Below are positions 1,243 through 48,831 of a stretch of 64,000 nucleotides of DNA, piece after piece. Both the position numbers and the translations under genes were made by a program. Below the pieces are notes generated by a model. The model was not told the origin of the DNA and searched no databases. It saw only the letters and a program-made list of their open reading frames with translations. Origin of the DNA: Tetragonia tetragonoides (taxonomy: Eukaryota; Streptophyta; Magnoliopsida; Caryophyllales; Aizoaceae); contig CM076153.1 of the NCBI GenBank assembly GCA_038025085.1, positions 17,707,001-17,771,000 on the forward strand, written 5' to 3'. Within the stretch, counting starts at the first letter, position 1; the number at the start of each line of letters is the position of its first letter.

Positions 1243-1341
1243 GGCTGAAATCTAAATTAATTGCGAGTTTCTCTCTCTAAAAAGCTCTCTATTGCTATGG
1301 AATTATGAAGGTGATGTCCCAAAATCGGACTAACCCAAGGC

Positions 1342-5204: not shown

Positions 5205-5470
5205 AAAGCAGAGCAACACAATGCTCTTTGACGATGAGGCTAGCGTCACGTCGACAACAACTTAAGCAGAGCAACACAACGCTCTTTGACATTGAGGCTA
5301 TTACAATTAGCGTCACGTTGGCACCCTTGAAGAAGAGCAACACAACGCTCTTTGACGTTGAGGCTATCAAAATTAGCGTCACGCTGGCACCCGCAAAGCA
5401 GAGCAACGCAACGCTCTTCGACGATGAAGCTATTAAAATTCGCATCGCGTCAGCTCCCGCAAAGCAGGTA
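5205..5470. repeat. Tandem repeat (58/66 bp units) between PMD gene and 3' LTR of E
   Basis: Units starting gagcaacaca begin at 5211, 5269, 5335 and 5401, so the spacings are 58, 66 and 66 bp. Each carries an inverted pair of gagcg/cgctc words and a gcgtca word. The counterpart in A (20090-20295) is more degenerate. Tandem repeats in the hypervariable 3' region of Tat-lineage elements are a known source of satellites. Confidence 0.8.
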
Positions 5471-5587
5471 ACCCTGACCACAGGCGGTCAGGAGTTTATC
5501 TTTCCTTCTTTCTAACATAAAGCATTTAAAAAAAAAAAACACTGCAGCATTTTTAGCAAATACTTTGACCTTCGCTTTTACAAGCTC

Positions 5588-5605
5588 GGCCAAAGTGGAG
5601 GCTTT
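5588..5605 (+). other. Polypurine tract of element E
   Basis: The purine-rich ggccaaagtggaggctttt stretch lies directly before the 3' LTR start (TGTAGACACC). Its place and its similarity to the tracts of A and B give the element's orientation (+). Confidence 0.65.
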
Positions 5606-9978: not shown

Positions 9979-11523
9979 TGTAGGCTGCCGTATTTTCCAC
10001 CCGTCTTTTCCGCGTGCCTTACCCTCGGCCCTCCTTTCAGGGGTCGGGTTTTCCGGATAGCCTGGGAGAGCGCGTTGGGTGATCGAGTTTCATGAATCTT
10101 TTAGTGTATATGCACATAGAGATTTTTGTACCAAGGACATGATTAAGATTGTCGGAAGTCGCCATGAAATTTTGAGGTAATTTGGAAACCTTGGAGATCA
10201 AGTCGATAGTCTAGAAAGACGTCAACTCAACTCCTGTGCACCCCAATCCCTATTGGGGAAATTGACTTCATTAATGAGTTCGGGGGCGTAGGTACGAGCT
10301 GGGAAGGTGTTAGGCACCCAACTCGCTCGTTAACAACAATGGCCTTTACTAATCGATTCAATATAATTATTAATGCTACTGTTCCAAACAAGGTTCAATT
10401 TGTCCAAAATCCTAGTTTTAACTAATGGGTTTGAACAAGCATTATTATTGTGACCACTTTTAACAATTTATCAAGTTACATGCTTTTATTGCTAAAACGA
10501 TAAATATGCTAAAACCTGCAATTTAAAGGACAAATGCATAATTTATCCGGCAATCCACAACAATAAGCATAATTCATTCATAATAAAGCAATAAATAACA
10601 ACATTAAAAATCATCATTCACCCATAAACTTAGGCGTAATTCAAGCCGTTTTGCTCAAAACGCGCCATGCATGTACATATCACATAAACCAAAAACGTTA
10701 GTAATAACAAGCAAAAAAAATTATTGAAAATCCTCAGATTGGATTACCTGGATGCTCACAATGCACTTATTGGGTTGTATTGCTTGAATTCATGCTCTTG
10801 ATGAAGTATGAAGGTTTATATTGTGGTGCTAGGGCTAATCCTAAAGAAGGAGTAGAATCAGAATTTAGGGTTTATAATATGAGAGAGAATGTTCAACCTT
10901 GAGAGAGAAACTGCCAACCAACTCTCAAATTTCCAACCTCTTCAACTGAACCCTAAGGTTTGTTTATATAGAAGAGGGGGAGCTGCCAGGGTTTTGCACG
11001 GAAATCGAATGGGCCTCGAATTTTGCCGCCGCAAGAAAGGGTCCAGGCGGCCAAACCGGCAGGCCAAGCGGTCACGCCGCTTGGCAAGCGGTTGTGCCGC
11101 TTGGCCGAGCGGTTGTGCCGCTAGTCCTAGCAGCCACCGCTTGAGCCCATCGTGGCCGCTTGGACCTGGAGCGGTATGCCTGCATATGCGCCTGGCATGA
11201 TTTTCGTGCAGGGGAGGCTTTTCCGAGCGTGTCCACGCGGGATTGACTGGGCTCCCTTGTTTGACTAAGGGTTGACTCCTGGGTTTGGGTTCCCTTTCAG
11301 GCCCTTAGGTTCAAAGAGGCCTATCTCTCAGTTTTAGACTCCAATTGAGTTGAGTCCAACTGGTTTGGATCACCTGTACAAAAGGATTCCACTGGTTAAT
11401 TCAAATGAACTAGGCTAATCATCAGAACAATTATTCTCGCAACCCAAGTTCGAGCAAAATCCAATCCTTTCATCATCGGGTTTTTACGGGGACTTATTAT
11501 AGACACATTTTTTGGTGTCTACA
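9979..11523 (-). repeat. 3' LTR of element B
   Basis: A 1545-bp repeat from TGTAGGCTGCC to GGTGTCTACA, matching 44860-46379. In element orientation it has a GC-box array at about 11190-11030 and a TATATAAA box at 10970-10963. The CCAAT...ATTGG block shared with the A-family LTRs lies at about 10238-10318. Confidence 0.92.
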
Positions 11524-11639: not shown

Positions 11640-12380
11640 CTTTTTAGAGCAACAAATTTTCCGGTTTATTTGACCGAGAGTTTGGCCCTATGCTGTAGGT
11701 CAGACAATAAATGTCCTCCGATTTTCAGTCGAAGGAGACCCTATGCTGTAGGTTACACAATAAACGTCCTCTGATTTTCAGTCGAAGGGGACCCTATGCT
11801 GTAGGTTACACAATAAACGTCCTCCGATTTTCAGTTGAAGGGGACCTTATGCTGTAGGTTACACAATAAAAATATTTTGTTAGAAATAAGATAAGAGATA
11901 AAAATCTTACGATCTTAGGTCGAAAGGTGACCCTATGCTGTAGGTCAAACAATAAACGTCCTTCGATTTTCAGTCGAAGGGGAACCCTATGATGTAGGTT
12001 ACACAATAAACCTCCTTCGATTTTCAGTCGAACGGGAACCCTATGCTGTAGGTTACACAATAAAAATATTTCGTTAGAAATAATATAAGCGATAAAAAAA
12101 TCTTTCGATTTTCAGCCGAAGGGTGACCCTATGCTGTAGGTCAAACAATAAACGTCCTTCGATTTTCAGTCGAAGGGGAACCCTATGCTGTAGGTTACAC
12201 AATAAAAATATTTCGTTAGAAATAATATAAGCGATAAAAAAATCTTTCGATTTTCAGTCGAAGGGTGACCCTATGCTGTAGGTCAAACAATAAACGTCCT
12301 TCGATTTTCAGTCGCAGGGGAACCCTATGCTGTAGGTTACACAATAAAAATATTTCGTTAGCAATAATATAAGTAATAAA
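11640..12380. repeat. 53-bp tandem repeat with 141-bp higher-order unit, 3' region of B
   Basis: A monomer of about 53 bp containing ccctatgctgtaggt, acaataaacgtcct and cgattttcagtcgaa is repeated about ten times. From 11867 a longer unit begins with taaaaatattt; further copies start at 12061, 12203 and 12344, giving steps of 194 (141+53), 142 and 141 bp. The array lies between the 3' LTR and the PMD gene. Nothing else is seen here. Confidence 0.88.
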
Positions 12381-12569: not shown

Positions 12570-12760
12570 GTGAGAAATTGGGCCAGGCGGTCAAACCGCC
12601 ACGTCAAGCGGTTGAACCGCTTCGTGGAGCGGTCTGACCGCTGGCTGGAGCGGCTATGCCGCTTGGCTTGCGGTCTGACCGCCAGCTGGGCGGTCTGACC
12701 GTACACGTGGCGGTTTGACCGGCCACTAGGTCATTTGTGCGGTTTTGCCATAAAAGGAGA
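12570..12760 (+). promoter_or_regulatory. Promoter of the B PMD gene: AGCGGT/ACCGCT array and TATA box
   Basis: From 12585 to 12720 the sequence is an almost unbroken run of gcggt/accgc words spaced about 10-12 bp, many in inverted pairs. A CATAAAAG box follows at 12749-12756, about 220 bp before the PMD start at 12975. A CT-rich stretch (12770-12785) fits a plant transcription start. Confidence 0.65.
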
Positions 12761-12974: not shown

Positions 12975-15900
12975 ATGGCTCCCAAACTTAGAGGAGGTAG
13001 GAAAAGGAAAGGGCAGGAGATTGTGGTTCATGAGACCCCGAATGTTTTCACTCGGGTTTTCATTTCCGGTATACCCCATCACCGGGTGGATGAGAGCCGG
13101 TTAGTCCAGGATGAGTTCACTCGTAGTGATTTTTATCCTACCGATCGTTGGGAGCCCAGCGATCTCGTTTTCAAGAAGAAGGAGCATTTGGTTACCGTTG
13201 GTACCAAATGTCGGGTATGTCATTTTTTTTTCATTCTTGCTCTTTTACACCTAGAAAATCATGTGTAGGCGAACATAGAATTCCTAGGTTGAGAACTGTA
13301 GTGTAGTCAAATGTGGAAAAACCAATTTGCGTGAAATTGTTTTTCTGGTTAATCTGCGAATTCCGGTAGGATTCTTGTATTATATATGCATGTGAAGAAT
13401 GAATTTGTGTGAAATTCATCTTTAATTTGTGGAAAATAAATTTGTATGAAATTTATTCTCGTTGCAATTATATATTTCTTGTGAAAAATAAACTTGAATG
13501 AAGTTTACTTTTGCTGTGATGGTAAATGGTTTTTCGAGTATATTTGTGGAGAATAAAATTGTGTGAAATTTACTCTCTTTACTCTCGTCATGTTGGTTTA
13601 GCTAAAATGCTAAATTTTACGATTTGTAAAAATTTAGCACTAAACCGGAGACTGGTAGTTGTTACTAGGATCACCTAGCTAATTTTCTTTGCACTTGTTT
13701 TTTGTTCTGTTTTAGGATGTCGACACGGCCATGCGGGGTTACGGTAGCCTCTCGGGCATCGAGAAAGCCCGTAGGTACGTGACTCCTTCGGTGGACGCTA
13801 TTGTGGCGCGTTGTGGCTTCGGTCACTTTTTAGCGCCTATGGCTTCTGCCGAGCGCTCCGATCGCCTATTGGTTAGAGGCCTTGCGGAGCGGTACTGCGA
13901 TACTACCAGTACCTTTCATTTTCCTATGGGTGAGATCATGATCACCCCTTTCGAGTTCGGTCTCATTTTCGGGCTCCGTTACACCGGTACACCTGTTACT
14001 TATGGAGATGTGAGCCGGAAGGTTATGTTGGCGATGTTTGGTCTTTTTGGGACCAACTGGGATGGCAGGGAGTATGGTCGGACCGACGTCATGGTCCAGT
14101 TTTTGACCAGCCCGAGGAAGTTAAAGAAGATCACAGCGTAGCAGCACGCCCGCCTTTTCTTGGCCCTTGTTCTAGCTTGTTCCGTCTTTTCGGACAAGGC
14201 AAGTAGGCACCATGTTCGCTATTTTCCCGTGCTGGCGGGATTTGGACAGAGTTGCGGAGTACAACTGGGGTCTTCCCGCATACTCTTGTCTTCTACGGTG
14301 TTTGAGGCAGTCCAGTCGCCTTAGTTAGAGAGGAAGGCGCATCTTGCGTCTCCTTAGTCGGTTATTGGAAGGTTATGGAGGTAATTTCCTTTTACCCTTC
14401 TTATACTTTGTGTTTCGGCTCTTTATTAATAACTTGTGCCTAATCCATGTACTTTGCATGTCTTAGATTTGTTTTTATGAGCATTTCTCCGACCTTGCCC
14501 CTCTTCTTGAGATAGGGGATTTGTCCTTTCCAGCGATGCAGACCTGGAGGGGACGGGCTTCTTGCCCATTTACCACTCTGCACGCCCTTAGGGAGGCGAT
14601 ATATCCCTTGACCGCTCAGGATGTAAGCAACTCTCCTTTGTGCTTCTTTGGTTCTTTTATCCTTTTGTATGCTTATTCTTGCTTTTGCAGGTCGACTAGT
14701 TCCCCTGGACGGATTATCTACCGGGCCTCTTGGATAGATTCTTGGGTGCTCGGGTGTACGACCAGAGGAGGATCCTCATTGAGGGCCCTTTCGGTTTTGA
14801 GTGGTTCTTGGGGGAGAGACTGATTAGGCAGACTTTCCCCGATCTTCTTGCTCCGAGGGTTCCTTTGGATCCTCCGGGTTTTATTTTTTATGTTCGTCAC
14901 CTTACCGTGGAGCAGGTGAGGGCGGCCACCATTGGGGAGAATTCCCTTGAGTATTTGCTTCCAGTTGATCCTAAGGTGGATCTCATGGTGGCTTATACTA
15001 ATTTCGTTGAGGCGCGGTTATGCCCCAACTTCTCTACTGATCCGGTAAGTAGTGTACTTTTGTTTCTTAATTTCGTTTGGAAATTTAGAAATGTGTCTGA
15101 CATTCTTAAATCTTTGCAGAGTGCTTCGAGCTCTTCGGCTGTTTCTGCTCCGCGTCCTACTCCTCCTACTTTGTCGGTGCGTTATACCGGAGCGGACGGG
15201 TCTCCTCAGGTTATACAGGTTCTTGAGTTTCGTGGCCCTGATGAGGAGGTTGAGGGATTGCCTCTACCTGCTGGCTGTAGGGGGGTAAGTGAGAATTCAT
15301 TGTTATTTGCAATGTTTCCTTTGTATTTATGCTGATTCTTTTCCTTATGTGCACAGTTGGATGTTGCTGAGGCACGAAAGGTCTTTAGGGGTATGCATGC
15401 CCTTAAGACTTGGATACCAGATTCGTGTCTCGGAGTGTATGCACGAGTCGTCGGTCCGACGTTCGAGAGGTATGTTCATTTCAAGTAATAATGCTTGATT
15501 TGAATTTTGGTGATTTTCTGACCTTGAGCTTATTTTCGCAGCCTGTTCCCGTGGTGAGGTCTCCTAGGCCTTCAGTTGTTCGTACTCCGGAGTCGGTGTC
15601 TGCACCACATCGTCCTCCTCCTAGACAAGAGAGTGTAGAGGTGTGGTGAGGTCTCCTAGGCCTTCAGTTGTTCGTACTCCGGAGTCGGTGTCTACACCAC
15701 ATCGTCCTCCTCCTAGACAAGAGAGTGTAGAGGTGCGTCAGGGGACGCCTCGGGCTAGAGTGGATACCGGGAGCTCGCCCCAAGTGCCTTCTCTTTCGGA
15801 GTGGCCTGCACCGCCTCCCTATATGGGGTATCCGGGCTATCATATGCCCATGTATCCTCCAATCCCTCCAAGGGGTTCTTGGAGTCAAGAGAGTACGGGG

Positions 15901-16092
15901 TATGGCGGCTATCGTGGCATGTCGGAGCCACCTCGTCATTCATTGGATCCCGCTTACTTGACAGGTTCATTATTTGCTTTCGACCCTAGAGCTTGGGCGA
16001 TGTCTCAGCCCGGTCCTTCAGGTGCTCCACCATTGAGTGGACCTGGAGAGTTGTCTCAAGCGGGTCCGAGTACTGGCGAAGATGGCCAGTGA
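12975..16092 (+). pseudogene. Plant mobile domain (PMD) gene of element B, seven exons, broken
   Basis: Antisense to B gag-pol. Exons inferred from GT-AG sites and similarity to the A copy: 12975-13214, 13716-14380, 14467-14622, 14691-15044, 15120-15284, 15357-15469, 15542-16092. Exon 1 starts MAPKLRGGRKRK. Exon 2 has the PMD core (ERYCDTTSTFHFPMGEIMIT), and a TAG at 14139-14141 breaks it. A TAG at the start of exon 4 and a 92-bp duplication in exon 7 break it further. The tail is Pro/Tyr/Gly-rich (PPYMGYPGYHMPMYPP) with weak Ser/Pro/Arg repeats and no strong RS run. Family knowledge: host PMD proteins MAIN and MAIL1 affect transposon silencing. Function in the element is not known. Confidence 0.75.
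15551..15734. repeat. 92-bp tandem duplication inside PMD exon 7 of B
   Basis: The unit starting gtggtgaggtctcctagg begins at 15551 and again at 15643, with one or two differences. Ninety-two is not a multiple of three, so the second copy shifts the frame and makes a stop right after the first unit. Confidence 0.88.
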
Positions 16093-16600
16093 TATTTGTT
16101 GTAGTGCATTTCGAACTTTCGGGCTTGTATTAAACCTGCTACAAATTATTGTATTTTATTCACGCACAAACATATCACACAAATGCCCATATGTGAACAT
16201 CAATCAACTAATTTCCGAATGGGAAATCACAAATCACGACATTCCCGAATTTAGGATTTCCGAGAATTTAGCACAGTTGGAGTACCCCTTCCCCTAAAAT
16301 AAAAATAAAGTAAAGAAAAGTAAATATAGAAAAAGATAATTAAAGGGGAAAATACTAATAAAGGAAACCAGAAAATAAAAGGAACAAAGGTGGAACTTTG
16401 ATAATCAAAATAAAAAGAAGGAAAGAAAATAAAGAGGGAATAAATAGAAAAGTGGCAAGAGCCAAAAAAATAAGGTAAGGAAAATATAAGGGGAGTCTGC
16501 CAAAATTTGACCAAGTGGGAAATAGGAAGGTGGAGCTCTGTCCCGCGTGGGGTCGGTTGAACCGAGATCTCTCACGACAAGAGTACACCAGGCGCCTATA
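16093..16600. other. Spacer between PMD and DUF7745-type genes of B
   Basis: AT-rich sequence following the PMD stop, with an A/G-rich run at 16300-16480. I see no gene or repeat in it. It should hold the PMD terminator and distal promoter of the next gene. Confidence 0.5.
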
Positions 16601-16840
16601 CAGGGTGACCGCTAGAACTCCAGCAAGCGGCTGCCACGTGGACAAGCGGCTATGCCCCTTGGGCTTGCGGTTTGGCCGCTTGTCCTAGCGGTCAAGCCGC
16701 TTGCTGGAGCGGTTTGGCCGCTTGTCCCAGCGGCTTAGCCGTCCAGGCTAGCTTCAAGGCCGCCTGACCTTTTTTCGTCGTTTGTCTTAATTTCCTTAAA
16801 TTTTAGACGAGAATCAAACCGTAGCCCCTATATAGTTGGG
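16600..16840 (+). promoter_or_regulatory. Promoter of the B DUF7745-type gene: GC-box array and TATA box
   Basis: From 16605 to 16760 there are about a dozen agcggt/ccgctt words. A CTATATAG box follows at 16828-16835, 86 bp before the start codon at 16921. This matches the layout upstream of the PMD gene and inside the B LTR. Confidence 0.68.
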
Positions 16841-16920
16841 TTTCTTTCTCTTCTCTTCTCACCACTTGCTTTAAGCCCTTAGAGAGAGAATTCCTTGAGA
16901 TAAAATCCTTAATCTTAACA

Positions 16921-18438
16921 ATGGTGAATTTTGATGATGCTTTTGATGCCTGGTTGACTTCCATGACTGTAGAGGAGAGGTTAGAACTCACCCCTTTTCA
17001 CCTCAATGCCTTCTTTCACCTTAAACAAGTCAAGATTCTGTGGGATTTTCTTCATGCTTCAGTCGAGTTTTGGGACCCAAAATTCCATGTCTTCCGCTTC
17101 GGTGCTCAGGAGATGTGCCCCTTGGTGGAGGAATTCTCTGACATAATCGGCTTTCCAACCGAAAGTCCTCCTGCCGTTCCCTACTTGGGGAATGCTTTCA
17201 TGGGTGATTTCCAAAGGTACCTTGGGTTGTCTCCCGGTCAAGCGGGTCAAGTGCTTCATGGTGAAGACGTCGAACTTGCCAAGTTTTTGACTTTCTTCAC
17301 TTCCAAAGCCCAAGGTGCGATGGACATGAGGTACAAGAAGCGTGCGTTTTTATTTTACCTCCTCCATCGTTATTTGTTTATTGGTGGTAATGAAGATGCT
17401 CTTATTCCCTCCGAAAAGAAGCTTACCATCAATAGGGGCAAAATTTGCCTTCTTAGAGTGACCGAGCAAATACAATGGGATAGCTCTCCTATGCACTTGG
17501 TTGTGGGAGAGACAATCCTTGCTTTAGATAAGCTCAAGAGCAATCCTCAAGAGTCCTTCACCGGGAGCCCTTTACTCCTTCAAGTAAGTATCGTGATAAA
17601 GTCTTAATCTTTATGGACTTAACTTTATTGGGTGAAATTCTTATCTTTTATTGACTTGAATTTATTTTTTTTGTTATTTTTGTGTAGATATGGCTCGAAG
17701 AGAGGCTCAACATCCTTGAGATGCCTACCATACATACCAAAAAGTATTTACCCAAGCAACTCCCGTCGAGACGTCGGCAGTTTTTTTTATCTTCACGCGA
17801 GGAGTGGTTGGAATTCTTTTATACTAAGACCCAAATGGGTTGATTCGTCCCGTGGTGGCATACCACCAAGATTGTAGGGGTAGTGAGAACGTTCCCTTTA
17901 CGAGGATTATTGGCTTACGTACCCTAACTTCCTTTTTGTCAAACCGCCTTTTGAGACAATATGGTTTACGGCAAAGAATTCCAAATGTAAGCTGCGTGTG
18001 CCCTCATCAACGACCATTGAATCCTTCCTTAGTGCTCCGTTAGGAGCGATAATGGGGTTGTCGTCCAACATGGGTTAAACCAGTAATTCCTCATTCTCAT
18101 GAGCTGACGATCTTCTACGAGCAATGGATTTGGAGCGATGATCGTCGAGTCAACCCGAAACTTCTAGAGGAAGAGAGAGCGTTGTTCAAGGCCTGCAAAT
18201 ATGATGAGCCTAGCGGTGTGAAGATAACTCCAATCGATGGGCCCATTAAACCTTCCAAGCCCCAAACTAAGGGCAAGGGAAAAGGCAAGGCAAAGGCCCA
18301 ATCTAAGGAAAGGAAGAATCTGGCCCATTCGGCCAAGCAAGTAACTCCACGTAGGCCCAATGATCACGAGGCCTCTTCTAGCTATGGTAGGGAAAGATGG
18401 GCTCCAAAAGAACGAATGGAACTTGATGAGCCTAGCGA
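16921..18438 (+). pseudogene. DUF7745-type gene of element B, part before the A insertion
   Basis: Exon 1 (16921-17583, 221 codons, open) starts MVNFDDAFDAWL and has the family core FWDPKFHVFRFGAQEMCPL followed by EEFSDIIGFP. An intron with GTAAGT donor and AG acceptor spans 17584-17687. Exon 2 begins IWLEERLNIL and then contains several stops and frame changes (for example near 17840). It is cut at 18438 by element A; the last few codons are at 36274-36313. The end before the cut has the same RERWAPKE signature as the A and E copies. The pattern [FW]D...F.F...E..P...EF...IG.P resembles the PMD core, so I infer common descent. Function unknown. Confidence 0.78.
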
Positions 18439-19948
18439 TGTAAGAACCCTCGCCTTTCGGCGGTCTGATTGAAATATTCAGTTGGAATTAATGGTTCTTA
18501 AATGTGTGTCACATGCAATTTAAATTAACTATAAAGAACAATAATTTGCAAATAAGAAGCCGCCACCAATTTTTAAGGAAACAATTGGAAACCATCAAAA
18601 GTGCATCCCAATTCCTATTGGGAATCGACTCATGCCCATGGGGACTAAATATTGAGTTCGGGGATGTAGGTACGAAATAAACAAAACGAATCTCATCTAA
18701 ACCGCCCGTATTAACGGTCTCTACTAAGCTTATCCATGTCAAGTATTTATTTATGCTATATGATTCCATGCAAATCCGGTCGTCCAATGATCCTAAATTA
18801 ACTAGGCGGGTAAAGATCAACCAAATTACCTACGTTATCGCTTTGCACAATTTATATCCAATTTACATGCATACTATTAACAAGCATTAACATGATATAG
18901 AACATTAAATAATGCTCCAACCTACCAACTTTGCTAAACGCGCCATGTATCGCATATGCACATTAATAAAACTGTTAGTATCTTCAAAAGAATAATAGTA
19001 ATATTATAAAGGTGCTAACTTTATGCTAAAATGAACCTAGGAGGCTACTATATGCATGCAAAAACTATAAAAAGATGCAAACTTGTATAAACTAATAAAA
19101 AGACATAAACTTTATATTAACACTCCATGCATAATTATATACAAAATCAAAAGCATGCAAATTTATTCAACCATAATCAAAAGCTAAATAAAACATGATT
19201 AATAAACAATAAAACAAGAGATTTAATGAAGAGTTAGGCCCTCAGGATGGTTAACCTGGACGTTCTATTCGAACGGGACTAGTAGAATTGGGATTGCTCT
19301 TCGATCTTGGGTGCTAGGCTAGGTGTATTGCTTGCTTGAATCTTCAGATTTCTTGAATTTGGGGAATTATGTGCTCTCAATGCTCTCAAAATTGTGAACT
19401 GACTGACCTCCTGCAAAAGAGGGTGAAAGGGAGTATTTAAAGAGTTGGGGGACGGATTTAGGGGCCAAGGGCTAGGCTCCAAAACTTGGCCCAGTCAAAA
19501 ATTGGGTTCATCGGCCACGCGGAGGGCAGTTGGGGCCCGCGGCTGGCCGCTGAAACTCAACGGCTGGCCCAATGGCCCCCGCTGTCACGTGTTGGCCGCC
19601 GAACGGGTCGAGTCAGCCGCTGGACCTGACGGCGCGCGCGTGACTATGGTTTTGACTTTTTGGTGCTCTGTAATTACGAAATTGACCTTGGGCTGGCCCA
19701 GGGGGCCGGGAATGAGAGTTTTAGCCCAAATCTTCGAGACGCGATATCTTTTGATCCGGGAACCTGATTGAGGCAAGGTCAAAGGCGTTGGAATACTTAT
19801 AACAAGGGCTATCCAAAGACTGAGGTTTCAAGGAATTTGGTCTAGATTTCCGAGCAATGTCCTTTTCTACTTACGTCCATGTTAATCCATTACCATAATC
19901 ATCGGGCGTTGCGGTGCCATGGGATGAAAACCGATTAGGGTGTCTACA
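18439..19948 (-). repeat. 3' LTR of element A
   Basis: A 1510-bp LTR, TGTAAGAACCC to GGTGTCTACA, very similar to 34731-36268 and, in reverse, to 5606-7114. GC-box array at about 19500-19650. The TATA-like word (TTTAAATACT read on the - strand) near 19441-19432 is changed from the TATAAATA of the 5' LTR. An open frame of about 100 codons lies at 18820-18509. Confidence 0.93.
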
Positions 19949-19966
19949 GAAGCCCCCACTTTGGCC
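19949..19966 (-). other. Polypurine tract of element A
   Basis: Reading leftward, GGCCAAAGTGGGGGCTTC abuts the LTR start TGTAGACACC. This is the plus-strand primer tract and confirms that the left LTR is the 3' LTR. Confidence 0.72.
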
Positions 19967-20084
19967 GAGCTTGTAAAAGCGAAGGTCAAAGTATTTGCTA
20001 AAAAATTCCTGCAATGTGTTTTTTTTTTTGAAAATGCTTTATGTTAGAAAGAAAAAAGATAGACTCCTGACCGCCTGTGGTCAG

Positions 20085-20300
20085 GGTTACCTGCTTTGTT
20101 TAAAGAGCGGTGTTTTGCTTTGCTTTGCTTTGCTTTAAAGAGCGGTATGTTGCTCTGCTTTGTGGATACTGACGTGGCGCTAATTTTGATAGCTTCGCCG
20201 TCAAAAGGGCGTTGTGTTGCCCTGCTCTGTTTAAAAGAGCGGTATGTTGCTCTGCTTTGATTGTTGTCTACGTGACGCTATTTTGATAGCCTCCAAGGGT
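20085..20300. repeat. Degenerate tandem repeats, 3' region of A
   Basis: Repeated gagcggtatgttgctctgcttt words (20098, about 20138, about 20236) and a ctttg micro-repeat (20117-20135). These correspond to the cleaner 66-bp repeat of element E at 5205-5470. Confidence 0.65.
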
Positions 20301-20399
20301 TGTCATTTTGGGTGACATATTCAAATTTCCCGGGCTTCCAACGATCGAGAAACGCAATTCCGCGCGAAATTCGAACTCGTGGGCCCGCTCCGAGGGGGC

Positions 20400-20580
20400 A
20401 AACGCAAAAACGGGTTGGGCGACCATGCGCAGGGCCGCCGAACGCTGGGCGGCCTTTACTGGCCCACTCAGCGGCTCAAATTGGCATGCGGGGGCGATGA
20501 GGGGGCCCGCCCGATCTGGCGGCTCAGCCGCCTGGGCGGCCCTGAACCTGGCCGCGGGGTCGATTCAGTTGCCAAAACCG
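20400..20580 (+). promoter_or_regulatory. GCGGC-box array upstream of the A PMD gene
   Basis: Dense gggccgccgaacgctgggcgg-like words about 290-470 bp before the PMD start at 20869. A CT-repeat (20638-20650) and AT-rich stretch follow. A TATA box is not clear (tgcataat words near 20718-20735). Confidence 0.52.
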
Positions 20581-20868
20581 GGTATTTCTTTTGAGGAGCC
20601 GAATTTTTGGGTCATTTTGCCCCAAATTTTCGAGACTCTCTCTCTCTACCTCCATTGTTGCCCAATCTTCATTTCTTGCTCAAATTTGCTTCTTTTTGCT
20701 TTCATTTGCTTGATTTTGCATAATCTTTGCATAATTTTAAGTTTATTTGTGATTTCTCACAAATTTGGGGTGAATTTGTGAGTGCGTTTTTGAAACCCTT
20801 GGAGAGAGAAAATCCCAAATTTCTCCATTTTTGCTTGTTGATCTTTGCTAGCTTGTTCATCTTTCTTC

Positions 20869-23653
20869 ATGGCTCCCAAATTGGCGAAGATGAGGAGTAG
20901 AAGGGCCAAGGTTTAGGAAGAAGTTGAAGAAATTAACATCTTCACGAAGGCTTTTCTCTCTCATGTGAAGCCTTCAAAGAGGAAGCCTAATGTGGCTTTC
21001 CCTCAAGATAGGTACACCCGATCGGATAGGATGCCCGACATTGTTTGGGATCGATCGGAGTTGCTCTTCCGACCGGCGACTCACTTGAGTTCCCGTGCTT
21101 CCAAGTTTGTGGTAAGCCTTAAACTTTGAATTCATAGTTTTATGCATTGAATTTTAGTTCATGTGCTTTGCCTTGAGTAGAATTGTGTAGGAATTGTATG
21201 CAATTGTCAAGCTTGTAGCGCATGTGATCTTGTGCGACTTGAACGAACTTAGAAATATGCTTAGGACTTGAACATTTGGTTGAAATGTGAACCTAATAGG
21301 TTGCGAATTTGATCATAGGAACCCGATGGGAATTTGAAGCCCCATGGCAATTATGGTTCATCGGTGAGGCTTTTTAAGACTTTGCCCAAAGAGGTGCAAA
21401 GCGCGGTTTTGGGTGCGGGGTTCGGACCCCTTTTGAAAGCGGCGGACTCGGTTGAGCGAGTCAAAAGGTGCATTGTCCGCTTGTCTTTGGAACGTTTTTG
21501 GGATACTACCAACACATTCCACTTCCCTAATGGGGAGATGATGATCACTCCTTCGGAGTTTGCTATGTTGACTGGGGTGCCTTGCGTGGGTACGCCCATT
21601 GTGTATGACGTTTCCATCTGGAAACGTAAGACTGAGATGGTGGAGTTGTTTGGCCCTTGGGGTAATACCTGGGGTCACCATTATCGTCCCTATAGCGAGC
21701 TCTATGCCGCTTTGACTGATGCGAGGTACAAGAGGTCTACCTCAGTTGAGCAGAAAGCGAGGGAGTTTATCGCCTATCTCCTTGCCACCACCATATTTGG
21801 TGACAAGGGAGAGCGTATTCATGCTATTTACCTCCCTAGCTTGCTGGATTGGGAGAGGGTGAGTGAGTACAACAGGGGGTTGCCGGGCTACGCCAACCTC
21901 TTGAGGTGCATGCGGTTTGCTTGCTGCGTGAATGATGAGGGATACAAGCAGACGACTCTTCCTCCTGTGAGCTTGTGCGGTTTCTGGAAGGCCTTGCAGG
22001 TGCGTTTTTACTTTGTATTTATTTAATGCTTTGCATGACTTAAGTGTATGGTGCTTAATTTCATGTTTCGATGTAGCCTTGGTTTTTTGAGCATTTCCCG
22101 GACATGGCGCCTACGGGCTGGGAGTTGGATTTCCCGGTTTGCAGGGCGTGACGTCATAGAGGTCCTGCGCCCTTTTCGACCCTCCAGCAGCATAGGGAGG
22201 CTCTCTTGCGCCTAGATTGGCACAAGGTAACGCAATTTTGCTTTTTGCTACATGGATTGTATTTCTTGGTGTGGGGAATAACTTATATTGCATGTTTGTG
22301 TAGATTGACTACTTCCCTTGGACGAAGTACCATGGGTCGGCTCCGGATGCTGTCCTTGCGTCCAGGGCGATAGACCGCCAGAGGATCTTCCGTCAGGATC
22401 TTCCAGGGCGATAGACCGCCAGAGGATCTTCCAGACGAAGTACCATGGATCCTGATTGCGGGTCCATTCTCTTTCGAGTGGTACTTGGGAGAGCGATCTT
22501 CCGTCAGGTTTATCCTGACGTGGCTGGCCCGAGGATTCCCTTGGATCCTCCCTCGACCATGTTCTTGGTGAGGTGCTTGTCTCGCGAGCAGGTTGCGGAT
22601 GCCATGGGCGGCTCAGATGCTATGCGGTATTTGAAGGAGCCTACGGAGGACCTTGCGGGGCACTACGAGCAGTTCCGTCGTGATTGCCTTATGCCTTCAT
22701 TTGTGGGTCTGAAGGTAAGAATTTTATATGTATTTTCTATGCCTTTCTTGCTTTGTTGATTTGCTGACCTACATTGCTTTGTAGGAGCCTTGGGTTGATG
22801 ACGTCGGCGTGGATGTCCCGGATATGCGGGTCCGAGGTCGGGATTATGGCAGGAAGGAGTGCAGGGGAGAGGTCCGATGACAGAGGACCTTGATGAGGAC
22901 ATCCAGGGCCTTCCTCTTCCAGTTAGGCATCCAGGGGTAAATTCGTAATTTTACCTGTTGCATGTGATTTTTACCATTTTCATGCTTGTATTGACTTTTC
23001 TTTGCGCAGCTTGACCGTGAGCAGACCGGGATGGTCTTCAAGATGATGCATGCTATGAAGTCCTGGATCACTCGAGCTCTCTCGAAGGGCACCTGCTCGA
23101 GGGCTGACTTGGATAAGGTGAGCTAGACTTTGCATCTTCAAAGTTGTATGGTTTGAGAAATGTATCTTATATGCTCGGTGGGTTGCAGGTGGAGTATCGT
23201 CGACCCCTTCCTCGTCGGTCACGACAGGTGGTATTGTCGGATGATGAGGTTGTGAGCTCGCCTAAGCGTAGTCCTTCCCGCGAGAGGAGTCCTCGGAGGG
23301 AGAGTCCTCGGAGAGAGAGGGAGCCAGTGCATCGGACGGACCGTCCTGGTGGGAGTAGGATGGCTCCGTTTGTGGAGCCTACTCCTATGCCTATACCGAT
23401 GTATCCTTCTTATCCCGGGTATGCGGGGTATGCTCCATATGGTGGTCTTTATTACCATCCCCCTGTCCCTGCTCCTATGATGCCTACCATGCCTCCTCGT
23501 TCTTCGTGGGGGTATGATTCGAGTTATGCTGGAGAGGGGTGCTCGTATCGGGAGCCTGCCCGTCATTCCTCCTTTGACCCGGGCCAGCTGGCGGCGTCTA
23601 TCTTTGGTGATGAGCCCCGGAGGTCGGAGGATCATTTTGAGGTGCTGCGTTAA
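20869..23653 (+). pseudogene. Plant mobile domain (PMD) gene of element A, seven exons
   Basis: Antisense to A gag-pol. Exons by GT-AG sites: 20869-21111, 21319-21999, 22077-22226, 22304-22714, 22785-22936, 23010-23117, 23189-23653. Exon 2 (227 codons, open) holds the PMD core: FWDTTNTFHFPNGEMMITP, EFAMLTGVPCVGTP, then a helical part ending VSLCGFWKALQ. Exon 7 encodes an SR-like run (RSPSRERSPRRESPRRERE) and then a Pro/Tyr/Met-rich tail (YPGYAGYAPYGG). Lesions: TAG at 20914-20916 in exon 1, TGA at 22149-22151 in exon 3, a small repeat insertion near 22381-22445 that breaks exon 4, and a stop in exon 5. An SR-like region would suggest nuclear or RNA-linked action, but this is inference. Confidence 0.78.
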
Positions 23654-24140
23654 GATGCTGACGCGGGTGATGATTTTTATGACAATGCATTTGTAGGAAA
23701 TACATTTATTGAACATTTGTGTTGAACAAACATTCGGATTTTGCTTTGTAATATATTGCTGCTCTTATTGGTCCCTGCATAAAATTAGGCTAATGCAAAT
23801 GCACAGGTAGTCAAGCAAAAGCGCAAGTAATAGCCATGTAGCAAAAAGTGGTACAGCCAATAGTTAAAATTTGGTGTACCCTATCCCCCCTAAAAAATAT
23901 GAAAACAGAAAGGGGTGCTAAAATGAAATAAAATTAATAAGTGTAAAAGGGATGAATAAAATAAAAAGATGATGATCATCCACAAAAGAAATAAGGAAAT
24001 TGTGGGATTCCCATAAATAATTAAGGAAATAATAGCAAGTAGCAATAATAGAAAAAATAGGAAACTGAGCCAAATCGGAGTCCAAAACGGTTAAGGAAAG
24101 TGTCCAAAATCGGGTAGAAGAGTGCTGTCTCGAAAAAAAA
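23654..24140. other. Spacer between PMD and DUF7745-type genes of A
   Basis: AT-rich 3' flank of the PMD gene. Nothing coding was recognised. It aligns in reverse with about 1680-2080 of element E, including the shared word gtaccctatcccccctaaaaaa. Confidence 0.5.
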
Positions 24141-24144
24141 GCTC

Positions 24145-24385
24145 CGCGGCCAAAGGGGTGTGCTCAGCGGCTGACGCGAAGGAGCGGAGGTCAAAACAGG
24201 GGCTGCCAGACTCAGCGGCTGGGCCGCGGAGGCTGGGCGGCTGGCCACTGAGGCTCAACGGCAGGCCGCTGGGCCTTGGCTGCCATAACGGGGCCGCCGA
24301 GCCTTCAGCGGCTGCCCTATGGGTTACCTTATTTCGACGGGTTACCTTATTTTCGTCTTTTCTTGTGCGAGCCCTATATAAGCCT
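24145..24385 (+). promoter_or_regulatory. Promoter of the A DUF7745-type gene: GC-box array and TATA box
   Basis: Array of cagcggctg/ggccgcc words at 24145-24325, then CTATATAAG at 24374-24382, about 96 bp before the start codon at 24478. The same spacing is seen in E (TATA 1349-1342, start 1242) and B (TATA 16828, start 16921). Confidence 0.7.
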
Positions 24386-24477
24386 TGGGTTAGTCCGATT
24401 TTGGGACATCACCCTCATAATTCTGTAGCAATAGAGAGCTTTTTAGAGAGAGAAACCTCCAATTTTAGAATTCAGCC

Positions 24478-26023
24478 ATGGCAAGTTTTGAAGCTAAGTT
24501 CGATAAGTGGTTGCAATCTATGACCCCTGAAGAGAGGATGAGACTTGTGCCATTTCACTTGAATGCTTTCTTCCATCTGAAGCAAGTTCAAGTTGTCTGG
24601 AACCTTCTTGAGGCTGCGGTTGATTTTTGGGATGACAAGCTTCATGTTTTTAGGTTCGGGTATAACGAATTGTGCCCTCTCCCTGAAGAATTTGCTGCCA
24701 TAATTGGGTTTCCTCATGATCAAGCACCTGCAACTCCATGGCTCGGGGCCAACCTTGAAGGTCATTATAAAAGGTATCTTGGTTTATCTGCAACACAAGC
24801 CTCTTCTATGGCTAGAACCGGTGAGTTAGACCTCAATGGTGTCATTGACATCTTTTTCCCCAAGGTAAGGGATGATCATAATGAGACATATTATAGGCGT
24901 GCTTTTATCTTATGTCTCTTGCATAGGTACCTCTTTGTTGGTGGAGGTACTAATGGTAAAACTTGTATGCTTAGAATTGTTGAACAAATTCAAAACGATT
25001 TTACCCCTATGTCTCTTGTTCTTGGTGAAACCTTTATGTGCTTGGATCGCAAGAAACAAGAACCAACTCATGGCGGATGGACGGGAAGCCCTCTTCTCCT
25101 TCAAGTGAGTGCTTGAATAATTGCTTTGTATATAAAGTTTGAATCTTTAATGGATACCTCACTTTATTATTTGTTTTGCTTTTGTGCTTTTTGTAGATTT
25201 GGCTTTTGGAGCATATGTGCTTCATTGAGAGGCCGACTAATGCGCTCAAGTACCAGCCAAAGCAGTTTCCTGCCCGCCGAAGGCTTTATTATGAATCCAC
25301 CATTGCTGAATGGCGTGGATACCTTAAAGCTTGCCCTTTGCTAATATGGACTGTCAAGTGGTGGGGCTTGAAATCCGCAATCGGATGTAGCAAGGAGATA
25401 GGATATTATCAAGTCCTTGGTCTTCAAAATTTGACTTACATATTTCCTAGCCGTATCATGCGACAATATGGGAAACGCCAGATCATCCCACAGAAGGATA
25501 GTGTTGCGCCTGCCACCCGGGTTTTGACTATTAGCATGGTGAGATCATGGGAGTGTGCATGGGATCGTCGCCCTAAGTGGACTATTCCTCATATCAAGGC
25601 CCCAACGGCAATATCTTCAGCTTATGAAGCTTGGATGGATTGTAAGACTGCGGAGGGTCGTCGTGCATGCAGGAAATCTGAACAAGATGATCTCAAGGCC
25701 CAATCGGTCAAGGCTAGCTTAATACTCTCCAACCCTAATGATCCTAAAGGGAAAGGTAAACAAAAGGGATTCAAGCATGTGAAAAGTGTCCTTAACCCAA
25801 AGGCCAAGAAAGCTTTAGCCAAGATTACTACTAAGCTAGAGGAGGAGCCCCAAATTCGGGCCATGATCATGAAGCCTCTACAAGTGATCCTCTAATGGAG
25901 GTTGAAAAGGAAGAAGAGCCCGTGGTCCGAGAAAGATGGGCTCCCAAGGAGCGCGAAGTGGAAGGCCCAAAGGTTGACGAACCTATGGAGGATATTGTCC
26001 CTACTACCGAAGCCACGGAGTAG
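24478..26023 (+). pseudogene. DUF7745-type (PMD-like) gene of element A, two exons
   Basis: Exon 1 is 24478-25104 (209 codons, open), starting MASFEAKFDKWLQSM and carrying FWDDKLHVFRFGYNELCPL and EEFAAIIGFP. Intron 25105-25196 (GTGAGT...TTTGTAG). Exon 2 starts IWLLEHMCFIERP and runs through a conserved WWGLKSAIGCSKE region, SWECAWDRRPKW, and a Lys-rich linker. A one-base loss near 25860, compared with E, shifts the frame to an early stop at 25893-25895; the old stop is 26021-26023. This is the least damaged of the three copies. It converges with pol, whose stop is at 26378. Function unknown; not an enzyme by any motif I can see. Confidence 0.8.
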
Positions 26024-26377
26024 TTTATTTAGGAAATACTCTTTTTTTTTTTTTGGAGCATGTCTAGCTTAGGATTGCCGAGTCTTATAATGGACTTTAT
26101 TATTATTTATTTATGGAGACATGCTCATTTTAATTTTGCAACCTTGTGTTTATTATGTGCACAAATTTTAACAACTTTTGAATGCGAATTTGATGAAGGG
26201 GCCGGGCCAAATTGCAATTGGGTTGTCCTACGTATCCTTTTAGGGGAATCAGGTCGCTCGTAGTTCTTATCCGTTTTTTTTTAACATTCAATCCCGTTTT
26301 TTTTTGTTTTTGTTTTTTTTTACGGGATTAGTTAGCCTTGTGTAGGCCTCTCGAAAGTGTTATATTGGGTGTCTTGC
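26024..26377. other. Spacer between the antisense gene and pol of A
   Basis: Contains 3' ends of two converging genes. It holds T-rich runs (26041-26055, 26274-26319) and the words cctacgtatcc and aattgggttg, which recur at 36580-36604 in B and, in reverse, at 1-60 in E. No gene is seen. Confidence 0.5.
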
Positions 26378-28647
26378 CTAAGCATAGAACCTCTTTAATT
26401 GATCCATGTTTATCCATTGATTAAATTCGATCCCGTCTAAATTTGCCAATCTTGCAGCGCCACCTGTTAAGTTCTTTGTGATGATAAACGGGCCTGACCA
26501 GTTGGGTCGAAATTTGCCTCTTGGGTCAGTGACATTGGCCCTTACTTCTTTAAGTACTAAGTCTCCAACTTTAAGGTCCCTCATTTTGAGCCTTTGGTTA
26601 AAGTTCCTAGTTAGTCTGTTCTGATAGACTCTAACATTGTGCAAAGCTTGCAACCTTTTCTCATCTAGCAGGACTAATTGTTCATAGCGGGCTTGAACCC
26701 AATCCACTTCTGGGATTTGACTTTCCAAAACGATCCTTAGAGAAGGGATCTCTAGTACAATTGGTAATACGGCTTCCATTCCGTAAACCAGGGAGTATGG
26801 TGTTGCTCCCGTTGATGCGCGAACCGATGTCCTATAACCCCAAAGTGCGAATGGCAGCTTGTCTGGCCAGTCATGATAATTTTCGGATATTCTTTCAATG
26901 ATTTTCTTGATGTTCTTGTTAGCTGCCTCTACTGCACCGATTGTTTGCGGTCTGTAGGGGGATGACTTTCGATGCTGGATTTTAAATTGGTCCAACAGCT
27001 CGATCACTTCTTTCATGAAGTGTGACCCATCATCACTGATGATTTCTTGGGGAACTCCATATCTAGCTATTATGTTATTCTTAATGAACTTTACCAAGTG
27101 TTTTGCTTTGAGCTTCGCGTATGATTGCGCCTCGACCCATTAAAGTAATCGATTGCGACTAGGATATATTCGTGTCCCCCTTTTGCTGTTGGGGTTATTT
27201 TACCGATGATATCTATCCCCCAAGCTGAGAAGGGCCAAGGTGAGGTAAAGGTATATAACGGGCTTGGTGGTAGATGTTGTAAATTTGCATGAGTCTGGCA
27301 TTGTACGCATCTTTTGACAAACTAGCCCTTCTCAGCTCGATCACTTCTTTCATGAAGTGTGACCCACTATCACTGATGATTTCTTGGGGAACTCCATATC
27401 TAGCTATTATGTTATTCTTAATGAACTTTACCAAGTGTTTTGCTTTGAGCTTCGCGTATGATTGCGCCTCGACCTATTTGGTAAAGTAATCGATTGCGAC
27501 TAGGATATATTCGTGTCCCCCTTTTCCTGTTGGGGTTATTTTACCGATGATATTGATCCCCCAAGCTGAGAAGGGCCAAGGTGAGGTAAAGGTATATAAC
27601 GGGCTTGGTGGTAGATGTTGTATATTTGCATGAGTCTGGCATTGTACACATCTTTTGACAAACTAGCCCTTCTCAGCTCGATCACTTCTTTCATGAAGTG
27701 TGACCCATTATCACTGATGATTTCTTGGGGAACTCCATATCTAGCTATTATGTTATTCTTAATGAACTTTACCAAGTGTTTTGCTTTGAGCTTCGCGTAT
27801 GATTGCGCCTCGACCTATTTGGTAAAGTAATCGATTGCGACTAGGATATATTCGTGTCCCCCTTTTCTTGTTGGGGTTATTTTACCGATGATATCGATCC
27901 CCCAAGCTGAGAAGGGCCAAGGTGAGGTAAAGGTATATAACGGGTTTGGTGGTAGACGTTGTAAATTTGCATGAATCTGGCATTGTACGCATCTTTTGAC
28001 AAACTCACAACAGTCTTTCTCCATCGTTGTGCAATAATATCCAAGCCTTATTATCTTCCTGGATGGCATCATACCGTTCATGTGCAGTCCACATACTCCT
28101 GCATGTACTTCTCTTAAGACCTTATGGGCCGTTTCGGTACCTAGGCAGCGGAGGTTGACTCCGTTTGGGCTTTTCTTGTATATTTCTCCCTGTACTTCCA
28201 AGAATTGGGCCACAAGCCTTCTGAGTACTTTTTGGGCTCTAGGACTAGAATCAGGAGGGTAGAGCTGGTAACAAGTAGATTTTTTATGTCGGTATACCAC
28301 TTATCTTCTTCATCGTGGAACACTTCCAGGGTGTCACAATATGAAGGCTCGGATCTTCTTTGTACACAGATGGGCATCATCCGAATAGTTTCTGGTATGT
28401 TAATCATGCTTGCTAACTTAGCCAAGGCGTCTGCAGATTGATTATCTTCTCGTGGAAGGTATGTAAAGTGTATTTGATTGAAATACACTATGATTTTGTC
28501 TAAGTATTCCTGGTAGAGTGTCAGGGATTCACTTTTAACCTTCCATACTTTGGAAATTTGGTTAATTATGAGTGACGAGTCCCCATAGACTCGGAGTGTC
28601 TTAATACCAAGGCTTATGGCGGATTGCAGTCCTATTATGCAAGCTTC
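26378..28647 (-). pseudogene. Element A: second RNase H (C-terminal part) and integrase, disrupted
   Basis: From 28647 leftward: end of the archaeal-type RNase H (YLPREDNQSADALAKLAS), then the integrase HHCC zinc finger (VHAGVCGLH, RCVQCQ) and the start of the catalytic core (WGIDIIGK). The core is then interrupted by a 3-fold tandem repeat (27001-27998). The rest resumes at 27097 with SDDGSHF, PYRPQTIGAVEAANK (catalytic Asp and Glu), SLVYGMEAVLP, and a C-terminal GPF-like module (KFRPNWSGPFIITK), ending at 26378. A normal element would have one uninterrupted integrase of about 450 residues. Confidence 0.88.
27001..27998. repeat. Threefold tandem repeat (337-341 bp) inside integrase of A
   Basis: The unit starting cgatcacttctttcatgaag begins at 27001, 27338 and 27679. 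Spacings are 337 and 341 bp; the first unit lacks 4 bp in the catttggt region. Units are nearly identical, so the duplication is recent. At both inner junctions a 13-bp stretch, gcccttctcagct, is inserted; it is the reverse complement of agctgagaagggc found inside each unit (for example 27218-27230). Confidence 0.9.
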
Positions 28648-28650
28648 ATA

Positions 28651-30087
28651 TTAGGCGTCATTATTTGTAACCTCATGGTCTAGTTTGACTGAAATAGGTG
28701 TATGTGCACCTTCGGGGGATACTATCAGTATTCCTACTCCAAAACCCTTTTGGTTGGATGCTCCGGCGAAGTATAGCTGCCAAGTCTCGGTGTCTAAGGT
28801 CATGACCCCTTCGTCTGGGAAGTGATATTCATCCTTGTGGTCTGGTTCATTTATGGCTTGGTCAGCCAAGTATTCCGAAATAGCATGCCCTTTTATGGCC
28901 TTTTGATGTTCAAACTTGAGGTCGAACTCTGAGAGGAGAACGGTCCACCTTGCTATTCTACCATTTAGTATGGGCTTTTCGAATATGTATTTCAAAGGAT
29001 TTTCTCTTGATCTTATGTGGATCGTGTGTTGGAGCATGTAATGTCGTAACTTTTTGGTAGTTGCTACCAAACCTAAACATGTTTTTTCCAGGGATGAATA
29101 GCGGGTTTCATATTCCAGAAACTTCTTGCTTACATAGTATATTGCTTTCTCTTCCTTATCTACTTCTTGGGCTAGCATGGCCCCCATTGATGTTTCTGTG
29201 ACCGTGAGGTAGAGAATTAGAGGCATGCCTGGAATGGGCGGTACTAGAACGGGTGGTTCGGATAAGTAGGCCTTAATTTTGTCAAAGGCCTTTTGGCATT
29301 GCTCGTCCCATTCCGTTTTTACCTCTTTTTTGAGTTTCTTGAATATGGGCTCACAAGTGATAGTTAATTTAGAGATGAACCTGCTTATGTATTGGATTCT
29401 TCCCAGGAAGCCTTTTATTTCTTTTTCCATTTTCGGTGGTGGCATGTCTATTATGGCTTTGATCTTGGATGGATCGATTTCTATCCCCCTGGTGCTTATG
29501 ACAAATCCTAGAAGTTTGCCGGATGTGACTCCGAATGCACATTTCTTGGGATTAAGCCTCATATTGTACTTCCTAAGCCTGTCGAAGAACTTTTGAAGTG
29601 AGGGTACATGCCCTTCTCTGTCCTTGAATTTTATGATCATGTCATCTACGTACACTTCGGCCTCTTTATGCATCATATCGTGGAGTAAGGTCGTAGCGGT
29701 TCTTTGGTATGTGGCTCCCGCATTCTTAAGCCCGAACGGCATTACCGTATAGCAATAAGTGCCCCACTGTGTGATGAAAGTGGTTTTCTCTTCGTCCTCT
29801 TTGGCCATCAAGACTTGGTTATATCCTGCGTATCCGTCCACGAATGACAGAAGGGCATGTCCGGCGGTGTTATCTACCAAGACGTCTATGTGAGGTAAGG
29901 GAAAGTCGTCTCTTGGACTTGCTTTGTTCAGGTCCCTGAAATCTACACACATTTGGACCCGTCCGTCCTTTTTTAGGACTGGGACAATGTTGGCTACCCA
30001 ATCGGGGTACTTGGCCACTCTTATGAAGCCTGCCTCTAGTTGTTTTTGGACTTCCTCCTTGATCTTAAGGGCCCACTCTGGCTTCAT
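28651..30087 (-). pseudogene. Element A: reverse transcriptase and RNase H
   Basis: 478 open codons. RT motifs in order: MCVDFRDLNKASP, the QVLMAKEDEEKTTF region, MPFGLKNAGATYQR, and the catalytic YVDDMI. Then a Gypsy RNase H/connection (YLTVTETSMGAML, YYVSKKFLEYETRYSSLEK) and the start of a second RNase H (WQLYFAGASNQKG). The usual first catalytic Asp (FDGAS) is Ala here; B keeps Asp. The frame ends at 28648 at a stop inside TNNDA.YEA, where Glu is expected. A second, archaeal-type RNase H marks the Tat lineage. Confidence 0.92.
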
Positions 30088-30099
30088 TCTTCTTAGCTT

Positions 30100-31437: not shown

Positions 31438-31444
31438 GAGTAGG

Positions 31445-48825: not shown

Positions 48826-48831
48826 TGAAAG

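Follow-up and report, generated by a model that had tools for sequence, protein, structure and literature searches.

The window analysed here, a stretch of 64,000 nucleotides from Tetragonia tetragonoides (assembly GCA_038025085.1, contig CM076153.1, positions 17,707,001 to 17,771,000, forward strand), is plant DNA containing long terminal repeat (LTR) retrotransposons, one inserted inside another, as seen by self-comparison and by inspection of LTRs and target-site duplications (TSDs). Three of these elements, here called A, B and E, carry between pol and the 3' LTR, in antisense to gag-pol, the same two intron-containing genes, one of the PMD family (PF10536) and one of DUF7745 type (PF24924), and it is this gene pair, together with arrays of a short motif in the LTRs and upstream of both genes, that is considered here. 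Element B (18439-36268, minus strand; LTRs 18439-19948 and 34731-36268; TSD AGCGA; LTR pair divergence K=0.046) is inserted into exon 2 of the DUF7745-type gene of element E (9979-46379, minus strand; LTRs 9979-11523 and 44858-46379; TSD CATAC; LTR pair K=0.071), which it splits. E represents a second family, sharing 65% amino acid identity with B in pol over 1948 codon pairs, a number that may include repeated counts because the integrase region of B is triplicated. Of element A (1-7114, plus strand), which belongs to the family of B with 85-92% nucleotide identity in the stretches matched by self-comparison, only the 3' part is present, its 3' LTR lying at about 5605-7114.

In both B and E, pol is ordered as reverse transcriptase-RNase H, second RNase H (RVT_3) and integrase; Pfam matches locate the reverse transcriptase-RNase H of B at 28651-30099, its RVT_3 at 28141-28650 (60.7 bits) and integrase pieces below 28300, and the RVT_3 of E at 37686-38237. 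An additional RNase H (RVT_3) between RNase H and integrase defines the Tat clade in the accessible part of PMC6317226, and both this domain and extra open reading frames (ORFs) between pol and the 3' LTR are found here; from the domain order, therefore, B and E are assigned by their sequence to the Tat clade, Ogre or Retand type, of plant Ty3/gypsy elements. Ogre is marked off as a subclade by its reverse transcriptase, RNase H and integrase phylogeny and by a primer-binding site of tRNA-Arg type; in E, the bases just after the 5' LTR are gtggcgacttcactggggac. No Pfam match to TRP28 (PF04195), the antisense ORF of Retand, was obtained in the pieces scanned, which comprised only part of the ORFs. 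The integrase region of B (26996-28005) is a 341-bp tandem triplication with 97% matches, so that the pol of B is rearranged.

The pair is laid out alike in all three copies, with the DUF7745-type gene nearer to pol and the PMD gene nearer to the 3' LTR. A preliminary description of the window had reported this common order and orientation in two families, and self-comparison together with gene models, built from conserved frames, sequence and splice borders, confirms it. The seven exons which that description gave to the PMD gene and the two given to the DUF7745-type gene are borne out in B and E, while in A exon 1 of the latter is mostly deleted. The interval 12975-26023 assigned to the pair, which extends from the PMD start of E to the DUF7745 stop of B, covers parts of two elements, one nested in the other, and does not include A. 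In B, on the plus strand, the PMD gene comprises exons 20869-21111, 21319-21999, 22077-22226, 22304-22714, 22785-22936, 23010-23117 and 23189-23653, and the DUF7745-type gene exons 24478-25104 and 25197-26023. In E, likewise on the plus strand, the PMD exons are 12975-13214, 13716-14380, 14467-14622, 14691-15044, 15120-15284, 15357-15469 and 15542-16092, and the DUF7745-type exons 16921-17583 and 17688-18438, the rest of exon 2 continuing beyond B to 36313. In A, on the minus strand, the PMD gene occupies 2112-4484 and the DUF7745-type gene 309-1242, with exon 2 (1136-309) open to its stop. The six PMD introns and the one DUF7745 intron stand at homologous positions in B and E with GT/AG borders, the six PMD introns being conserved in A as well, and those of B and E are of phase 0 as far as the damaged frames allow, with the end of E PMD exon 5 placed one base further on, which keeps the frame. 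These positions agree even though the antisense regions of B and E yield no BLASTN match over 150 bases at an E-value up to 1e-10.

All three copies are damaged today. In the PMD gene of B, exons 1 and 3 contain stops, exon 4 combines a duplication with a frame break, and exon 5 has another frame break; the E gene has stops in exons 2 and 4 plus frame breaks, and the A gene frame breaks and a truncated exon 7. The DUF7745-type genes are affected by a frame break in B (near 25850), by frame breaks and the insertion of B in E, and by the deletion in A. The last PMD exon encodes a low-complexity tail, which in B (23189-23653) is arginine-serine rich and then rich in proline, tyrosine and glycine; exon 7 of E (15542-16092) has a similar proline/tyrosine/glycine part and a 92-bp tandem duplication. 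At the PMD N-terminus there is a short basic cluster, KKRSRR in A (4484-4430, minus strand) and GRKRKG in E (12975-13020), which presumably resembles a nuclear localisation signal.

In spite of this decay, the exons retain the imprint of past purifying selection, measured on the copies within the window. Between A and B, the ratio of nonsynonymous to synonymous divergence (dN/dS) is 0.15 for PMD (95% bootstrap 0.10-0.21; 588 codons, after exclusion of 126 with gaps, stops or frame breaks) and 0.18 for DUF7745 (0.12-0.29; 304 codons, 179 excluded). Among single exons the ratio is lowest in PMD exon 7 (0.04) and reaches 0.37 in DUF7745 exon 1 (31 codons); the value of 0.87 for PMD exon 5 is unreliable, as its second piece of about 19 codons was read one base off, which affects the PMD total slightly. 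Changes were also counted by codon position and compared with a neutral expectation derived from non-coding and LTR sites by sequence context: those at positions 1, 2 and 3 number 27, 29 and 89 in PMD (62-63 expected each; exons 5 and 6 omitted) and 18, 14 and 46 in DUF7745 (about 37 expected), so that positions 1 and 2 changed at 0.4-0.5 of the expected rate and position 3 reached 1.25-1.4 times that rate. These values support the selected role that the preliminary description had suggested for the pair. Between B and E, amino acid identity is 43% for PMD (370 codons, exons 1-4) and 47% for DUF7745 (375 codons) at saturated synonymous sites, because of which no dN/dS is given for this comparison. 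The selection seen between A and B and the protein identity kept between B and E at saturated synonymous sites therefore indicate that the pair is old and has been maintained as protein-coding. In the A-B exons, synonymous divergence is about 0.3, whereas the non-coding and LTR DNA of these two copies differs by 0.12-0.14; sequence context does not explain this more than twofold excess.

Searches with hidden Markov model profiles identify the PMD gene above the PF10536 gathering cutoff of 34.9 bits in B (72.2 bits for the read-through with X; 53 for exon 2 alone) and in E (39.7 for exon 2). The assignment to DUF7745, made from the letters alone in the preliminary description, holds less firmly, as the genes in the window stay below the cutoff of 26 bits (B exon 1, 21.1; B joined exons, 20.2; E exon 1, 25.5), which is passed by three of the first four relatives (P0001, P0002 and P0004; P0003 lies below). 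The two genes had been regarded as different in kind, and this view is not upheld by cross-matches of the profiles. The B DUF7745 protein matches the PMD profile with 24.1 bits (E-value 2.4e-5; residues 36-334 on profile positions 10-321), below the curated cutoff, as does E exon 1 with 18.2 bits; P0001 (41.2) and P0002 (48.5) pass the PMD cutoff, P0003 and P0004 do not, and the former two thus exceed the cutoffs of both families. In an alignment of 57 sequences, here called A5 (54 of the 97 relatives found plus three exons from the window), 56 members match DUF7745 and 28 match PMD at E-values up to 1. On these profile matches, PMD and DUF7745-type genes are diverged members of one superfamily. 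A comparison of two small alignments by hhalign gave an E-value of 0.0004 but a probability of 34% over 66 columns. A wider protein search returned 96 proteins at E-values up to 1e-3 among 7993 candidates scored, with Vaccinium, Rhododendron and Quercus included; the B PMD read-through had no protein match at this threshold among 7465 candidates. Viral sources gave no relative either: of 30 stretches found by pattern in viral contigs with the DUF7745 alignment none was confirmed, PMD exon 2 had no match in these contigs, and a viral structure library gave 0 of 21 matches at an E-value up to 0.001. Sequence searches of the PDB with PMD exon 2 (E-value up to 1) and with the A5 profile and a two-sequence PMD profile (up to 10) found no relative, the sole hit, BIG at an E-value of 5, being taken as chance.

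The only clear fold match, obtained for a relative of the DUF7745-type protein, is VANC21 in its DNA-bound structure (9LNJ), and this modelled relative thus appears to have a VANC21-like fold. VIA-align compared the 216 chains that Foldseek had ranked, and nothing can be concluded from other folds being absent among them. An initial model of P0001, built on seven sequences, was poor (predicted local distance difference test score 57) and was discarded. VANC21 is described, in the accessible part of PMC5735166, as binding arrays of short motifs in non-coding DNA, and VANC proteins as containing DUF1985 and DUF287 domains; its crystal structure is cited as unpublished in the portion available of a meeting report (PMC8756742). 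DUF287 is not listed for any of the 57 A5 members. In the literature searched, with most subscription journals outside it, no paper joins VANC and PMD by structure, and the two are named together, as separate examples, in the available parts of PMC8616336 and PMC6419827.

Arrays of a short motif are found in the DNA around these genes. In both families, six-mers of AGCGGC type show enrichment in the LTRs and ahead of the two antisense genes and are rare in coding DNA. Half-sites of the form RGCGGY/RCCGCY occur at 2.8-19.0 per kb in 11 regulatory stretches, namely the LTRs of A, B and E and the DNA upstream of their antisense genes, versus 0-2.2 per kb in the other 13; the 17,621 bases at 46380-64000 have none, and in 10 of the 11 regulatory stretches the count is reached by at most 2 of 300 dinucleotide shuffles. 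When one mismatch is allowed, a 15-bp palindrome, AGCGGYNNNRCCGCT, is present 17 times where 0.09 would be expected, and 11 of these copies are exact. It occurs three times in the E 3' LTR, twice in the E 5' LTR, three times in the E PMD promoter, four times in the E DUF7745 promoter, three times in the A DUF7745 promoter and once each in the B DUF7745 promoter and the B 5' LTR, with none in the B 3' LTR, the A 3' LTR, the PMD promoters of A and B or the rest of the window. In the core of the E arrays, half-sites alternate at about 9 and 12 bp, and among same-orientation pairs up to 90 bp apart in 11 clusters, 81 of 130 are spaced by a multiple of 21 bp, give or take 1 bp, a register that averages 14% when positions are redrawn within clusters and was never as high as observed in 5000 redrawings. 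Between the three kinds of array in E, spacer bases vary while half-sites stay, which argues for constraint on the motif.

A TATA-type box follows 7 of the 11 clusters, namely those of the 3' LTR, PMD and DUF7745 promoters in E, of both LTRs and the DUF7745 promoter in B, and of the DUF7745 promoter in A; the clusters of the 5' LTR of E, the LTR of A and the two PMD promoters of A and B have no such match. In E, the 3' LTR array (11025-11175; 11 half-sites, 3 palindromes) is upstream of the LTR TATA box at 10970 (minus strand) and has its counterpart in the 5' LTR at 45900-46031 (10 half-sites, 2 palindromes), the PMD-promoter array (12586-12714; 11 half-sites, 3 palindromes) precedes the TATA-like CATAAAAG at 12749, and the DUF7745-promoter array (16608-16764; 10 half-sites and 4 palindromes, none with more than one mismatch) precedes TATATA at 16829. 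The DUF7745 promoters of the other family carry 6 half-sites and one palindrome with one mismatch in B (24166-24312, upstream of TATATA at 24375), and 15 half-sites and three palindromes with one mismatch in A (1404-1673, upstream of TATATA at 1348, minus strand). Elsewhere in that family, the B 5' LTR has half-sites at 35843-35919 with one exact palindrome (35856), its 3' LTR a weaker cluster without palindrome at 19546-19621, and the B PMD promoter a half-site cluster at 20434-20540, with no palindrome within one mismatch, whose counterpart in A lies at 4828-4942.

Other repeats accompany the elements. Between the PMD gene and the 3' LTR, E has tandem repeats of 53-54 bp with longer units of 142-196 bp (11686-12380) and A has 66-bp tandem repeats (5241-5467), and between its 5' LTR and gag E has a 69-bp unit repeated seven times (43628-44113). 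Adjoining E, an open frame on the minus strand at 46375-47037 resembles, by eye, a Ty1/copia reverse transcriptase, and two directly repeated copies of about 1.4 kb with 92% identity (54171-55526 and 58820-60202), situated in the AT-rich right part of the window, possibly represent the LTRs of a further element.

Taken together, the fold match and the array binding reported for VANC21, which fits the 21-bp promoter arrays, point to VANC21 as the model for the pair, rather than to an analogy with the host proteins MAIN and MAIL1. We propose, as a reading to which we give an even chance, that both genes encode proteins of a superfamily with a VANC21-like fold and that both of these proteins, or one of them, bind the arrays of AGCGGYNNNRCCGCT type, forming a self-encoded anti-silencing loop. 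Both antisense proteins, or one, would be nuclear and would bind the 21-bp-spaced arrays before the LTR promoter and before the promoters of their own genes, and this binding would keep the LTR and antisense-gene promoters free of silencing, active, or both. The loop would be sequence-specific and element-encoded, as in VANDAL21/VANC21, here in an LTR retrotransposon. The introns, for their part, would not be recognised in the sense transcript that is reverse-transcribed, and the intron-containing genes would be copied whole; that they are antisense in the copied RNA would be the simplest reason for their survival through retrotransposition. The fold and the arrays each have their support above, and it is the connection between them that we infer; interference of the antisense proteins with host silencing is plausible.

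Several observations weigh against this proposal. The choice of motif rested on k-mers enriched in this very DNA and the spacing test used clusters picked by eye, so that the counts are after the fact; the half-site pairs are partly non-independent, the LTRs of E being mutual copies and the A array containing a recent 64-bp duplication. In A and B, the LTR and PMD-promoter arrays are weaker or lack regularity, and no enrichment is seen in the A 3' LTR stretch (5 half-sites against a shuffle mean of 3.0, with 50 of 300 shuffles as high), a stretch which in the half-site and divergence counts contains about 270 internal bases. The match to VANC21, obtained for a relative of the DUF7745-type protein, has only 11-13% identity, TM-scores of 0.43 and 0.46 and a Foldseek E-value of 0.048. 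By sequence, the A5 profile does not recover VANC21 at E-values up to 10, and DUF1985, the VANC domain, matches none of the 57 A5 members at E-values up to 1; on the PMD gene its match is weak (B exon 2, E-value 0.039, 14.4 bits against a cutoff of 35.1; read-through, E-value 0.22). The relative P0045 is acidic throughout. As to selection, third positions outpace the non-coding rate, so that the low dN/dS partly reflects fast synonymous change; measured on intron and spacer divergence (non-coding K=0.125), dN is about 0.4 of neutral.

The same arrays might instead be sites of a host transcription factor, for example of ERF type, co-expressing the LTR and both antisense genes, with the PMD and DUF7745 proteins serving another role in the life cycle. 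In A and B, many half-sites read GCCGCC or AGCCGC, resembling the GCC-box recognised by ERF-type proteins, and the TATA-type boxes after 7 of 11 clusters are as expected of ordinary promoter elements; yet the E sites are AGCGGY/RCCGCT palindromes in 21-bp register, which to our knowledge is unusual for ERF/GCC-box-type sites, and the VANC21 fold is left unexplained, so that we judge this explanation rather unlikely. The route envisaged in the preliminary description, in which the PMD proteins of the element act on the host PMD complex (MAIN/MAIL1/PP7L) by competing with it or poisoning it and so release silencing without binding element DNA, seems to us improbable. It agrees with the interaction of MAIN and MAIL1 with PP7L and their silencing of transposable elements (TEs) (PMC7156037), with PMD-A1/A2 clades encoded exclusively by Gypsy elements (PMC5418596) and with the suggestion that TE-encoded PMDs are a counter-silencing strategy (PMC8616336), each as given in the accessible part of these sources, but it accounts neither for the arrays nor for the match to a DNA-bound protein. 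A role at the RNA level, finally, would have convergent transcription produce double-stranded RNA (dsRNA) and small interfering RNA that limit the element, the proteins being secondary or passive cargo. Available excerpts report antisense ORF transcripts as a proposed source of dsRNA (PMC7264820) and tea PMD genes as yielding 21-nt phased small interfering RNA (PMC10673657); under such a role, however, one would not expect both genes to show purifying selection at the protein level, nor the protein similarity between families (43% and 47%) to be kept despite saturated synonymous sites, and we consider it very improbable.

A VANC-like fold together with a concrete candidate target site makes testable both the function of PMD proteins, including MAIN and MAIL1, and the role of the antisense genes of Tat-clade retrotransposons. 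That PMD genes occur in Gypsy elements and may counteract silencing is already known from the accessible parts of PMC6317226, PMC5418596 and PMC8616336. The literature searched, which excludes most subscription journals and in which the name DUF7745 is absent, yielded no mention of kinship between a DUF7745-type and a PMD gene of one element, of the VANC21 fold match or of the 21-bp arrays. If the VANC21-like proposal is true, self-encoded sequence-specific anti-silencing would extend beyond VANDAL transposons to large plant retrotransposons, and the host PMD silencing factors would fall in the same protein superfamily. A wider and more tentative reading, possible but in our judgement somewhat doubtful, is that PMD, DUF7745 and VANC proteins belong to a single ancient superfamily, encoded by transposons of class I and class II, whose members bind specific DNA sequences and counteract silencing, that Tat-clade elements use two such proteins and one kind of 21-bp operator array, present in the LTR as well as in both accessory-gene promoters, and that MAIN and MAIL1 are relatives of the element anti-silencing factor turned to host use.

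Compared with known systems, the pair has the domain family PF10536 in common with the host PMD-C proteins MAIN and MAIL1. These, unlike what is proposed for the element proteins, are host genes required with PP7L for TE silencing; 25 of the 26 genes commonly down-regulated in their mutants carry a DOWN motif, according to the available parts of PMC7156037 and PMC9899485, and this motif (CATGCAGTTT in the MORC1 promoter) is unlike the element motif. The antisense ORFs of Grande, RIRE2 and Retand (TRP28 type) likewise lie between pol and the 3' LTR, and in the accessible texts gene23 of Grande encodes a nuclear protein and has its own promoter (PMC7264820), and TRP28 is predicted to bind DNA (PMC11963269); they belong to another protein family, no TRP28 match being present in the pieces scanned here. 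With Gypsy-encoded PMD genes the pair shares the location of a PF10536 gene in Tat-clade elements; such genes are described for 57% of Ogre elements (PMC6317226, in part available) and as forming clades exclusive to Gypsy elements (PMC5418596, likewise). Here, by difference, a DUF7745-type paralogue adjoins PMD, both genes having conserved introns and promoters with common motif arrays, and the two could correspond to clades A1 and A2. VANDAL21, a MULE-type (Mutator-like element) DNA transposon of Arabidopsis, and its protein VANC21 differ in that the carriers here are LTR retrotransposons with an antisense pair of paralogues, that DUF1985 has no match above cutoff, and that the motif is a CG-containing palindrome of 21-bp period, as against YAGTATTAY for VANC21; what the two systems have in common is a VANC21-like fold and a short motif in tandem arrays in the non-coding regions of the element, to which, here, protein binding is putative.

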